From Trichocoleus sp. (GTDB lineage Bacteria; Cyanobacteriota; Cyanobacteriia; Elainellales; Elainellaceae): a stretch of DNA of 64,000 nt. The notes under the pieces were generated by a model that did not search any database, was not told the DNA's origin, and worked only from the letters and a program-made list of their open reading frames with translations. This document shows positions 31,073 to 34,961 of the stretch, piece after piece. The position numbers and the translations under genes were made by a program. The stretch is from assembly GCA_036702865.1 (NCBI GenBank), contig DATNQD010000087.1:310001-374000 (forward strand). The letters run 5' to 3'. The first letter of the stretch is position 1; every line of letters starts with the position of its first letter.

Positions 31073-31270
31073 AGCGTAGAACAGCAGGTAAAGACTGAAT
31101 GGATCAGGAGTTTCCAGTCAACTGGACGTCGAAGTAAAACTTTTTGTTTCAGTGATGGAGTATTAGCTTCAAGAATGCCCTGTTTGCGGCGACGAAAGAT
31201 CTGCTTGATGATCCCAAATCGCCTACAATGTTCTTGCTCTTCTTTCATGCCCGGATCACGGTTGACAGAC

Positions 31271-31804
31271 ATGGCTATCTTAGATTCTAAGGGTCGATTA
31301 TTCGGCAAAATCAGCATTCTGGACTTAGGTGCGGGTCTGGTGATTCTGCTTGCTGTCTTTGGTTTGTTCCTGCTACCGGGAAGTGGTGGATCAGTGGCGC
31401 AAGTCGGTTCTGCAACGAAGCCGATCGAAGTAGATGTGATTGTCCGAGGATTAACAGTGCGTGACCCTGCGGCCTTAGTTCAATCGCTTCAGGACGAGAA
31501 GAAGACAAACATTATTATTCGGAATCAGCCTTACGGACAGGTGGATGTGCTGAACGTTCAGCAGTTGCCTCGCACCGTTGCTGTCCCCCAACCTGATGGT
31601 TCTGTGAAGCCCTTTCCCGACCCTCGCCCCGAATTGAACTACACAGTAGACATGATGGTGACGCTGGGTGGGAATGCCCAGGTTGTGGATGATGGTCCTG
31701 TTTTAGGCAATACCAAAATTAAAGTTGGGACGCCGCTGGAGCTAGAGGGATTGACCTATCGCTTTAATGCGCCTGTCATTGGCGTGAGAATTAAAGATAA
31801 GTAA
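31271..31804 (+). CDS. DUF4330 membrane-anchored protein
   Basis: 177 residues. A short cytoplasmic start, MAILDSKGRLFGKISILD, leads into one transmembrane helix (about 19-38), then a beta-rich extracytoplasmic domain (VEVDVIVRGLTVRDP-like, then LNYTVDMMVTLGG). The ATG at 31271 is chosen because the longer frame from 31175 would add 32 Cys/Arg-rich residues unlike the family. Function is unknown. It ends 13 bases before the macrodomain gene, so the two are likely one transcript. Confidence 0.82.
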   Translation: MAILDSKGRLFGKISILDLGAGLVILLAVFGLFLLPGSGGSVAQVGSATKPIEVDVIVRGLTVRDPAALVQSLQDEKKTNIIIRNQPYGQVDVLNVQQLPRTVAVPQPDGSVKPFPDPRPELNYTVDMMVTLGGNAQVVDDGPVLGNTKIKVGTPLELEGLTYRFNAPVIGVRIKDK

Positions 31805-31817
31805 TTGATTGCTCTTC

Positions 31818-32351
31818 ATGTTCGACAAACTCTCGATCGTCCTGGGTGATATTACGCAGCAGTCAATTGATGCGATCGTCAATGCGGCGAATCATTCCCT
31901 ATTAGGAGGTGGCGGCGTAGATGGGGCAATTCATCGGGCAGCTGGATCAAAACTGCTAGAAGAGTGTCGAAAACTCAACGGCTGTGCGACTGGCGAGGCA
32001 AAAATCACCCACGGCTACAATCTACCTGCAAAGTGGGTCATTCATACCGTAGGTCCAGTTTGGCAAGGTGGCGATCGAAATGAAGATGAGCTGTTGGCAC
32101 AGTGTTATCGCAACAGTCTGCAATTAGCCAGGCAATACCAGATTCAGACGATCGCTTTTCCGGCAATTAGTACCGGGATCTATGGCTTTCCGCTGGAGCG
32201 TGCTACCCTCATTGCCTTAACCGAAGTTGCTCAATTCGTTCAAGTCCACCCGTCAATTGAGGTCGTTCGGTTTGTCTGCTTCAGTCAATCTGCCTATGAC
32301 TGCTACTTCAGTGCTCTAGAATCCCTCAAAGCCAACCTTCAACAAAATTAA
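31818..32351 (+). CDS. Macrodomain protein, probable O-acetyl-ADP-ribose deacetylase
   Basis: 177 residues, one complete MacroD/YmdB-type macrodomain: [19 protein letters not shown] (the catalytic Asn-Ala-Ala-Asn), [14 protein letters not shown] (phosphate loop), and [15 protein letters not shown]. The family removes ADP-ribose or acetyl groups from ADP-ribosyl substrates in the cytosol. ATG at 31818 is preferred to a TTG three codons earlier. It is 13 bases downstream of the DUF4330 gene and 87 bases upstream of the large regulator. Confidence 0.92.
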
Positions 32352-32438: not shown

Positions 32439-34961
32439 ATGGCGATCGATCGCATTCAGTGGCTTCGTGAACAGACTGCACTGGCGTCGCTATCAGAGGA
32501 GCTATTAGCAGCACTTGCTGATCAGGTTCAGGTGGAATTGGTTCAGGCAAATCGGCGTTTGTTTTTAGAAGACACACCGCCCTCGGCACTCTACATCCTC
32601 AGGTCAGGACATCTGGAGGCATATCACACCAGTTTCGATAGCCCTGCGACTGCCAGTAGCCTGCTGCCCGGATCAATTCTTAACTTAAAAGAGCTGCTGC
32701 TTGACCAGCCTGCGGCACAAACCGTCAACACCCTGGATGACTGCGAGTTGTGGGTGATTCCGCGCGAATCTTTTGTCCAGCTCGTGCAGCATTATCCCGA
32801 AATCAGCCGCACTTTTTCGCGTCAGCTCGCTGCCGAACTTGAGCAGGTCACCTCTCAGCTGGCATTTGAGCAAGAACGCCAAACTGCCCTCCGCCCTTAT
32901 CTTGTGCCCAGGGTGAAGCGGGGAGTGATTGGGTCAAGCCGCTATGCCATGCGACTGCGCCAGGATATGAAAAAAGCAGCGATCGATCGTTGTCCAATTC
33001 TGATTTTTGGAGAGCCAGGACTCGGAAAAGACAATATTGCTGCCCTCATTCATTTTGGGTCGAGCGATCGAAAGCAGCCCTTGATTAAAGTCAACTGCGA
33101 CACCCTCCAGATCAGCGGCATTGACTTGTTTGGACGGGCAGGCGGTAAGCCAGGGCTGCTGGCATGGCTGGGTTCAGGAACGCTCATGCTGAACAACGTG
33201 CAGGATTTCCCAAAACCCCTGGAAGCCAAACTGCTTCGTCTACTATCCAGCGGAGAATATACGCCTATTGCCCGTGAAGGTGAACCCGAACCCCCTGTGC
33301 AGCAGTCTCAGGCAAGGATCATCATGACCTCCGAAAAGGCGATGCCGGAGATCGAGCGAACGCACTGCTCACATGTGATCAAAGTTCCGCCCTTACGGGT
33401 TCGCAAGACAGACATTGAGGCACAAATTAAGTACTACATCACCCTTTATTGCCGCACCAGAGGCTTGCCTCAACCACAAGTTTCACCAGAAGCAATTCGA
33501 CGGCTCCAGGGCTACGATTTTCCGGGCAACTTTGCCGAGCTAGAAAGCCTGGTGGCACGGGCGATCGTTCAGTCCAACGGGGCACCCACGCTTACCGAAG
33601 AGGTGTTCTGGTCAGTTCGCAGCAAAGGCAGACGATTTCGGCTGAATCTGCTCAATGTCTATCCCCAACTGCGACAGTTTCTCCGAAGCCCCTGGTGGCC
33701 AGATCGAATCAACTACGGCATCGTCGTCTGGCTGTTTCCAATCATTGTGGCGATCGGTTTTCTGGGTCCGCAAAGCCGAGATGCAAACGTGGCGCTCAAT
33801 TTGTTTTGGGCTTGGTGGTGGCCCCTCATCTTGATCCTTTTTCCGTTTGTTGGCCGCAGTTGGTGTGCAGTTTGTCCGTTTATGATTTATGGCGAACTGA
33901 GCCAAAAGCTATCGCTGAAGCTGTTTCCGCGCCAGTTACTACCCTGGGCAAGACAACCCGCAGAAAAATGGGGCGGCTGGTTTCTGTTCGGGCTGTTCGC
34001 TCTGATCCTACTCTGGGAAGAACTCTGGAACCTGGAAAACACAGCCTATTTATCAAGCTGTTTACTGCTGCTGATCACAGCGGGTGCAGTCATCTTTTCT
34101 CTCCTGTTTGAGCGTCGCTTCTGGTGCCGCTATCTCTGTCCGATCGGTGGCATGAACGGCATGTTTAGCAAGCTTGCCATAATCGAACTGCGAGCCCAGC
34201 AGGGTATCTGCGCTGCAACCTGCAAAACCTACCACTGCTACAAAGGCGGACCGGCTGAAGGTGAAGGCATGGACACGGGCGGCTGCCCAGTTTATTCCCA
34301 TCCGGCGCAACTGGAAGACAATCGAGACTGCGTTCTTTGTATGACCTGTCTTAAGGCTTGCCCTCATCGATCGGTGGAGCTTAATTTGCGTCCTCCCGGC
34401 ATTGAACTCTGGACAAGCCACAAGCCTACTGGCTCAGAAGTTGCACTCTTGCTGCTGTTGCTGGGCGCAGTTTTTTTGCACCGAATTCCGGAAATTGCCG
34501 ATCGCCTCAATGTGGCAATCAACCTGAACCACTTTGGTACTCATGCTGGAGTCTCGGTTCTGGCATTACTCATTCCCACAGCGATCGTTCTACCCGCCTA
34601 TGGGTTGATGCAGTGGGTCGATCGCCAGATCAAACCCCGCCCTTTCCTGGAATTAGCTTATGGCTATCTGCCACTCTTGCTGGGAGGAAGCCTTGCTCAT
34701 TATTTGCGTCTGGCATTAACTGAAGCCGGACGAATTCTACCCGTGACGCTGGCGACCTTGGGCATTGGGACGGTTCCTGTACCAAGCATGGTTGCCGATC
34801 CTGCTGTCATTGCTTTCCTGCAAGGAGTGACTTTGATTGCAACTGCCCTGCTGAGTATGGCGCTTACTCAAAAAATTGCTCGTCAGCCTTTCTGGAACTT
34901 ATTGCCTCAGCATCTGGCGATCGGCACCTTGACCCTCATGCTCTGGCAAATCATTGTCTAA
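32439..34961 (+). CDS. cNMP-binding / sigma-54-activator-like AAA / NapH-NosR-type polyferredoxin fusion
   Basis: 840 residues. Residues 1-135 are a Crp-type cyclic-nucleotide-binding fold. Residues about 155-385 resemble the AAA domain of sigma-54 activators: GEPGLGKDNIA for Walker A, KVNCDTLQISGIDLFGR, PPLRVRKTDIEAQI and DFPGNFAELESLV. However, the GAFTGA loop is absent, Walker B reads GTLMLNNVQD (DE replaced by NN), and the usual Arg after PGN is Ala. No helix-turn-helix follows. From about 420 come membrane helices with WCAVCPF and WCRYLCPIGG, a cysteine-rich loop (CAATCKTYHC), and a ferredoxin motif CVLCMTCLKACP, as in NapH/NosR. It is probably a membrane redox protein with a regulatory head. 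Electron donor and acceptor are unknown. Confidence 0.82.
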   Translation: MAIDRIQWLREQTALASLSEELLAALADQVQVELVQANRRLFLEDTPPSALYILRSGHLEAYHTSFDSPATASSLLPGSILNLKELLLDQPAAQTVNTLDDCELWVIPRESFVQLVQHYPEISRTFSRQLAAELEQVTSQLAFEQERQTALRPYLVPRVKRGVIGSSRYAMRLRQDMKKAAIDRCPILIFGEPGLGKDNIAALIHFGSSDRKQPLIKVNCDTLQISGIDLFGRAGGKPGLLAWLGSGTLMLNNVQDFPKPLEAKLLRLLSSGEYTPIAREGEPEPPVQQSQARIIMTSEKAMPEIERTHCSHVIKVPPLRVRKTDIEAQIKYYITLYCRTRGLPQPQVSPEAIRRLQGYDFPGNFAELESLVARAIVQSNGAPTLTEEVFWSVRSKGRRFRLNLLNVYPQLRQFLRSPWWPDRINYGIVVWLFPIIVAIGFLGPQSRDANVALNLFWAWWWPLILILFPFVGRSWCAVCPFMIYGELSQKLSLKLFPRQLLPWARQPAEKWGGWFLFGLFALILLWEELWNLENTAYLSSCLLLLITAGAVIFSLLFERRFWCRYLCPIGGMNGMFSKLAIIELRAQQGICAATCKTYHCYKGGPAEGEGMDTGGCPVYSHPAQLEDNRDCVLCMTCLKACPHRSVELNLRPPGIELWTSHKPTGSEVALLLLLLGAVFLHRIPEIADRLNVAINLNHFGTHAGVSVLALLIPTAIVLPAYGLMQWVDRQIKPRPFLELAYGYLPLLLGGSLAHYLRLALTEAGRILPVTLATLGIGTVPVPSMVADPAVIAFLQGVTLIATALLSMALTQKIARQPFWNLLPQHLAIGTLTLMLWQIIV

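Follow-up and report, generated by a model that had tools for sequence, protein, structure and literature searches.

A cyanobacterial gene joining a Crp-type fold, a pseudo-AAA domain of the sigma-54-activator type and a NapH-like membrane iron-sulfur domain: a candidate membrane electron-transfer protein

Introduction

The locus considered here raises the question of what purpose an AAA domain of the sigma-54-activator type might serve in a cyanobacterial protein, placed between a Crp-type fold and a membrane iron-sulfur domain: according to the available text of PMC3162934, none of the 29 cyanobacteria sequenced at that time had sigma-54 or activators of it. The gene lies in a 64,000-nucleotide stretch of Trichocoleus sp. 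DNA, the whole of which is hereafter called the window, and a preliminary description had read it as a case of a transcription-factor domain recruited to control membrane electron flow. No account of the fused protein was found in the literature searched, which lay mostly outside the subscription journals, and the available text of PMC1858693 names Fer4 and cNMP just as extra domains of cyanobacterial regulators.

Architecture of the Fused Gene

Positions 32439-34961 (+) of the window constitute a single open frame of 840 aa with an ATG start, and profile searches confirmed that it fuses three parts: a fold of the Crp type, an AAA+ domain of the kind found in sigma-54 activators (bEBPs) and a membrane domain resembling NapH. 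Pfam matched cNMP_binding at residues 35-119 (8.7e-15), Sigma54_activat at 164-303 (2.1e-16), AAA_lid_14 at 320-382 (1e-10) and Fer4_5 at 543-579 (2e-9), a second ferredoxin-type motif being matched at sub-threshold level only, and NCBIfam assigned the AAA part to families of bEBPs, the best of them NorR (2.4e-28). In the predicted model of the whole protein (mean pLDDT 78.6, pTM 0.51), a Crp-type barrel, a long helix in the place that we take to be that of the Crp dimer helix, and the AAA domain are accompanied by some nine helices in the membrane. As had been claimed, an HTH is missing: no such family was matched by Pfam in the 840-aa protein, the C-terminus of which is a membrane helix in the model. 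The features, all on the forward strand, are as follows.

32439..34961, +, whole gene, 840 aa: Crp-type fold, bEBP-derived pseudo-AAA domain and membrane protein with putative [4Fe-4S] clusters (ORF, ATG start; Pfam, NCBIfam, model)
32541..32795, +, Crp/cNMP-binding fold, residues 35-119, lacking the canonical phosphate-cassette Glu and Arg (L83, A92) (Pfam; alignment columns; register from solved relatives)
32799..32900, +, long helix, residues 121-154 (model)
32910..33623, +, residues 158-395, AAA domain with the fold of sigma-54 activators and without a GAFTGA loop (Pfam, sequence and structure matches)
33009..33032, +, residues 191-198, unaltered Walker A motif of the window copy, GEPGLGKD (alignment)
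33192..33197, +, Walker B position, residues 252-253, NN replacing DE (alignment)
33522..33539, +, PGNFAE, residues 362-367, with Ala366 in the place of the sensor II Arg of GNxREL (alignment)
33693..34106, +, TM helices 1-4 of the NapH-like core, residues 419-556 (NCBIfam, alignment, model)
33864..33878, +, first membrane-edge motif, C476-x2-C479-P480 (Cys invariant in 122/122)
34125..34142, +, second membrane-edge motif, C563-x3-C567-P568 (Cys invariant in 122/122)
34209..34364, +, two putative [4Fe-4S] ligand sets: C591, C595, C600, C616; and C631, C634, C637, C641 (invariant in 122/122)
34431..34955, +, C-terminal membrane helices beyond the NapH-like core, residues 665-839, with no Pfam match (model)

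Distribution and Subfamilies

A scan of the phylum gave matches at 1e-20 or better in 105 of 386 genomes, 104 of them, all from the window's class, containing members of the family, a few through partial or split matches; because the family extends to 104 of 386 genomes, the fused gene is neither a one-off nor decayed. Split copies occurred in G342 and G257, and internal stops in G116 and G324. The 105th genome, G106, matched through the AAA part alone, by virtue of a separate double-AAA, bEBP-like protein. When the 104 genomes were sorted by hand, about 78 were placed in the main subfamily, 20 in subfamily 3, and six held subfamily 2 only.

The first alignment set comprised the window protein and 80 relatives (the best 80 of 371, more distant ones falling outside the set), which shared 59-79% identity over nearly full length. 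A further 41 loci from other genomes and plasmids brought the total to 122 sequences including the window, 121 of which possess the AAA core, L166 being a fragment devoid of it that was placed in subfamily 2 by its lid sequence. Subfamily 3 corresponds to 20 genomes of family f19, mostly small, in which the match begins past the Crp head; 11 of the 20 contributed sequences for comparison, and Pfam found no cNMP domain in either of the two subfamily-3 proteins scanned. The f19 loci (e.g., L136-L143) have seemingly lost the Crp-type head while retaining the pseudo-AAA and membrane parts. Main-subfamily copies starting past the head were recorded in G119, G109, G014, G193 and G346.

Trees of the AAA and membrane parts, constructed from 45 sequences with L166 excluded and no outgroup, each placed subfamilies 2 and 3 on one side of a branch with 100/100 support. 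The placement of subfamily 3 differed between the two trees, the membrane tree carrying the tool's warning of long branches meeting. A single old fusion would be the simplest reading and is compatible with both domain trees.

Outside the cyanobacteria, the plasmid records searched yielded a membrane-part relative in Deinococcus ficus (33%) without the soluble half, and weaker membrane-part matches in haloarchaea, Azospirillum, rhizobia and others. The Azospirillum gene (L170, 2748-5191), a distant membrane relative, lies directly after a gene for an FTR1 iron permease, which we take to be an FtrD-like place.

Losses in the Crp-Type Head and the AAA Domain

The claim of a cNMP-binding head held with respect to fold and failed with respect to ligand residues. 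A channel cNMP domain could be superposed on the modelled head with a Z of 17.6 (rmsd 2.1, 134 residues aligned), yet at positions 83 and 92, which in a register taken from PDB alignments correspond to the phosphate-cassette Glu and Arg, neither residue was present in any of the 81 aligned sequences: position 83 was L, V or F, and position 92 was A, T, V, I or P. With both canonical residues gone, binding of cyclic nucleotides by the head in the usual manner is improbable. Only 6% of its columns were invariant, the threshold being set at 98% of the 81 sequences.

The AAA part resembles bEBPs (FleQ, NtrC, NorR and PspF) and VpsR in its fold and lid, in its PPLRxRxxDI and PGN segments and, in the window copy, in Walker A. 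FleQ aligned with the modelled domain with a Z of 20.8 (rmsd 4.0, 228 residues), and VpsR was the top PDB match by sequence (1.6e-22 to 3.9e-22). Unlike bEBPs, the window protein lacks GAFTGA, the Walker B Glu and an HTH, and its genome gave no RpoN match. The losses of GAFTGA and of the Walker B acids that had been described for the window copy extend throughout the family, GAFTGA and the Glu at the second Walker B position each being present in 0 of the 121 sequences that have the AAA core, so that homologues with an active, GAFTGA-bearing ATPase and a DNA-binding domain were not encountered among them. Walker B reads NN in 80/81 of the first set and in 16/18 further main-subfamily members, and DN in 7 of the 11 subfamily-2 sequences with an AAA core, the Asp being kept in 9/11 of subfamily 3. 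Within Walker A, residue 196 is Glu in 56/81, the window copy keeping Gly. In VpsR, which is independent of sigma-54, Walker B is altered to ND and GAFTGA is absent in the alignment.

By way of contrast, the reported loss of the Arg following PGN was true of the window copy but not of the family as a whole. In the 81-sequence set, 48 members have Lys at this position, 12 have Arg and 21 have some other residue; Arg was retained in 11/18 further main-subfamily members, and hence in a mere 23/99 of the main subfamily, unlike bEBPs, and in 10/11 subfamily-3 sequences. The key losses being family-wide, the case for the preliminary description is for the most part stronger than had been claimed.

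Because the Walker B Glu and GAFTGA are gone, the AAA part looks non-catalytic, and to judge from the aligned sequences the loss of the ATPase is common to the whole family. The domain is nevertheless under purifying selection: comparison of the window with L016 gave a pN of 0.123 against a pS of 0.750, of which only the contrast counts because synonymous sites are near saturation. Invariant columns, by the same threshold as for the head, made up 32% of the AAA lid and 20% of the core. The window's genome contained eight matches to PF00158, the present gene being the best at 64.5 bits and the next 31.9.

Sigma-54 in the Genome and the Phylum

A search of the window's genome for rpoN, the presence of which had been named as grounds for doubt, was made with a single family, the RpoN DNA-binding family PF04552, and gave 0 matches; of 14 named genomes used as a control, 4 were positive, those of E. 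coli and B. subtilis among them. Across the phylum, 11 of 386 genomes matched at E 0.001, and two exceeded the cut-off (G125 and, as a borderline case, G224). In G125, the match (62 bits, positions 33-159) falls within a 202-aa ORF (L173, 2959-3567, -) that has an RpoN-box-like stretch; the ORF could be either a relic or a domesticated fragment. The separate G106 protein (L161, 5683-7662, -; 660 aa) has two tandem sigma-54-activator AAA domains that score 447 bits to Sigma54_activat, and G106 is not one of the 11 genomes matching the RpoN family.

The Membrane Iron-Sulfur Domain

The NapH/NosR-like character ascribed to the membrane module was borne out, the best family match being NapH/MauN (TIGR02163, residues 470-648, 2.4e-13; 50 bits, or 52 for the membrane part, against a curated cut-off of 213) with NosR a weak one. 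Like NapH/MauN, the protein combines in its membrane core a pair of Cys-Pro motifs with two putative [4Fe-4S] ligand sets; it differs in the addition of C-terminal helices and a large N-terminal fusion. Twelve Cys residues were invariant in 122/122 aligned sequences, window included, and residues 561-660 formed the most conserved segment, with 74% invariant columns (at least 98% of the 81 sequences), compared with 49% in TM1-4 and 22% in TM5-9. The motifs suggest two [4Fe-4S] clusters. Since the TM2-TM3 and TM4-TM5 loops were found, by eye, to be rich in K/R, the clusters and the AAA half would lie on the cytoplasmic side. The family match, the invariant Cys, the conserved segment and the charged loops all favour a role in the conduction of electrons.

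Several observations detract from such a role. The first motif is CX2CP rather than the CX3CP of NapH/MauN (the second is CX3CP). The Fe-S loop (579-660) was modelled at a pLDDT below 50, and comparison of the membrane model with the PDB gave no Foldseek match at E 0.001 and a best VIA-align Z of 6.6; because the loop is poorly modelled, the missing PDB match says nothing about a new fold. The candidate haem ligands H681, H754 and H825 are conserved in the main subfamily and were rejected on not being kept in all subfamilies. As these His residues are not kept everywhere and TM5-9 is less conserved, the sequences do not point to a particular site for haem or quinone.

For comparison, the available text of PMC5928378 describes NapH as proposed to draw electrons from quinol, with Cys motifs required for partner binding and electron transfer, and describes Cys-Pro membrane motifs in NosR and RdhC/PceC. 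Unlike NosR and RdhC/PceC, the window protein has no FMN-binding domain detectable by Pfam up to E 0.1. Elsewhere in the window's own genome, L003 (G000:C67:104904-105323) and L004 (G000:C86:56029-56457) gave weak matches to the membrane part (E 2.7e-4 and 0.002, respectively) and may be other Fe-S membrane proteins.

Gene Neighbourhood of the Main Subfamily

Two genes precede the fused gene in the window:

31265..31804, +, DUF4330 gene, preceding the macrodomain gene (Pfam; neighbour in 4/80 relatives)
31809..32351, +, macrodomain gene, ending 87 bp upstream of the fused gene (Pfam; not a conserved neighbour)

A unit comprising these genes had been thought possible, but the macrodomain gene occurred in the flanks of 0/80 relatives and DUF4330 in those of 4/80, the flanks of 73/80 extending at least 1.5 kb upstream; these counts refute a conserved operon, and with DUF4330 near 4/80 relatives the arrangement is at most a local one. 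The largest true neighbour cluster embraced no more than 18/81 loci, bigger clusters overlapping the gene itself. No electron donor or acceptor gene was a conserved neighbour in the main subfamily, which counts against a conduit. NtcA sites (GTAN8TAC) within 300 bp upstream were found for 4/81 genes compared with 6.0 expected from shuffles and so gain no support, and a promoter and terminator scan returned nothing exceeding shuffles.

Subfamily 2 and Sulfur-Related Neighbours

Subfamily 2 consists of 12 loci, two on plasmids (Pseudanabaena galeata and Aulosira laxa) and ten on genome stretches, and together with its linkage to cysteine synthase is a new observation. In 7/12 of these loci a cysK gene of the same orientation follows at a distance of 6 to 535 bp, in favour of an electron-carrying role; in 5/12 none follows, which tells against it. 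Within 600 bp downstream, cysK was found in 0/98 main-subfamily loci (93 of which have at least 1.6 kb downstream) and in 0/11 of subfamily 3; a cysK-like gene lies farther away or inverted in four main-subfamily loci (L041, L045, L146 and L148).

Other neighbours of subfamily 2 included rhodanese-type genes at 5/12 loci, nitronate monooxygenase at 3/12, and psbA at 3/12, the last also being found near a main-subfamily gene (L151). At L130 and L133, which are closely related to each other, nearby CCG, Fer4_8 and flavoprotein genes are read as Hdr-like; genes for a DUF4405 protein and a weakly DUF2202-like protein likewise lie within about 5 kb upstream, on the gene's strand and running towards it. 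At L135, a NifH-family gene is situated 1.8 kb downstream. The Aulosira copy (AP018309.1, 73018-75732) is recorded as a 'nitrogen assimilation regulatory protein', a name that suits the AAA part alone. According to the available text of PMC8002359, sulfide inhibits photosystem II, and psbA and SQR play roles in cyanobacteria.

Discussion

The reading that we prefer, and to which we would give roughly even chances, is that of a membrane electron-transfer protein whose former transcription-activator half serves as a non-catalytic scaffold or gate; it derives from the NapH-like core taken together with the suggested cytoplasmic placement of the clusters. On the pattern proposed for NapH, two [4Fe-4S] clusters facing the cytoplasm, together with the two membrane-edge Cys-Pro motifs, would relay electrons between the quinone pool and a carrier in the cytosol. 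Both soluble parts, Crp-type and AAA, would descend from a transcription activator no longer able to hydrolyse ATP, contact sigma-54 or bind DNA, and would now constitute a cytosolic scaffold for oligomerisation and docking, which may gate the conduit. Subfamily 2 would fulfil the same role in sulfur or low-oxygen gene sets, often beside cysteine synthase. The architecture, the conserved Cys, the lost motifs, the selection on the AAA domain and the cysK linkage are established; the single ancient fusion, the clusters, the quinone partner, the direction of flow and the scaffold role are presumptive. The initial suggestion of a transcription-factor domain that controls membrane electron flow is a plausible hypothesis.

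A bolder and less probable form of this proposal, which we offer tentatively, is an ancient cyanobacterial electron valve in which a whole Crp-bEBP regulator was captured as a pseudo-enzymatic scaffold for a membrane Fe-S conduit. A further form of the valve, plasmid-borne in two or more strains, would link the metabolism of sulfide and cysteine with the quinone pool of photosynthesis where conditions are sulfidic or micro-oxic.

NosR, MauN and CcoG are thought to act as maturation or assembly reductases, and the alternative that fares best, albeit a rather improbable one, is that the present protein works in this way too, delivering electrons that serve to build or protect a metal centre, while its AAA half provides a chaperone-like scaffold. 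The nearest family models accord with such a role, as does the adjoining iron permease gene of the distant Azospirillum relative, and the genes near subfamily 2 for cysteine synthase, rhodanese and Hdr-like proteins would suit sulfur handling; the main subfamily, however, has no conserved client gene alongside, and the AAA part is without the residues for ATP-driven remodelling.

A second alternative, unlikely but like the first a serious rival, casts the protein as a redox sensor, the Fe-S/Cys membrane part sensing oxygen or the redox state of quinone and the Crp/AAA half relaying the output to partners through its oligomer state. The bEBP/Crp descent of that half, the purifying selection on its AAA part and the want of a conserved redox partner gene beside the main subfamily are all compatible with sensing, but eight ferredoxin-type Cys plus two membrane Cys motifs would exceed a sensor's need, Pfam detected no DNA-binding or known output domain, and no conserved signalling neighbour was seen.

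A sigma-54-independent transcription regulator resembling VpsR, for which the leading PDB sequence match speaks, is very improbable in a protein that has no HTH and ends in the membrane. That the gene is decaying or a gene-model artefact, as the split copies and internal stops might suggest, is scarcely credible given one open frame in the window, the nearly full-length identity of the best 80 of 371 relatives and the low pN relative to pS.

Among the 386 sampled genomes of the phylum, 104 retain a sigma-54-activator AAA domain in the form of a conserved pseudo-ATPase, within what is likely a redox membrane protein. If the preferred reading of electron transfer is right, the family would furnish an extra, unassigned component of the cyanobacterial electron-transport network. 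Its cysK-linked form directs attention to physiology involving sulfide or low oxygen, and the family would also illustrate clearly how a transcription-factor domain can be put to use in a role other than transcription.
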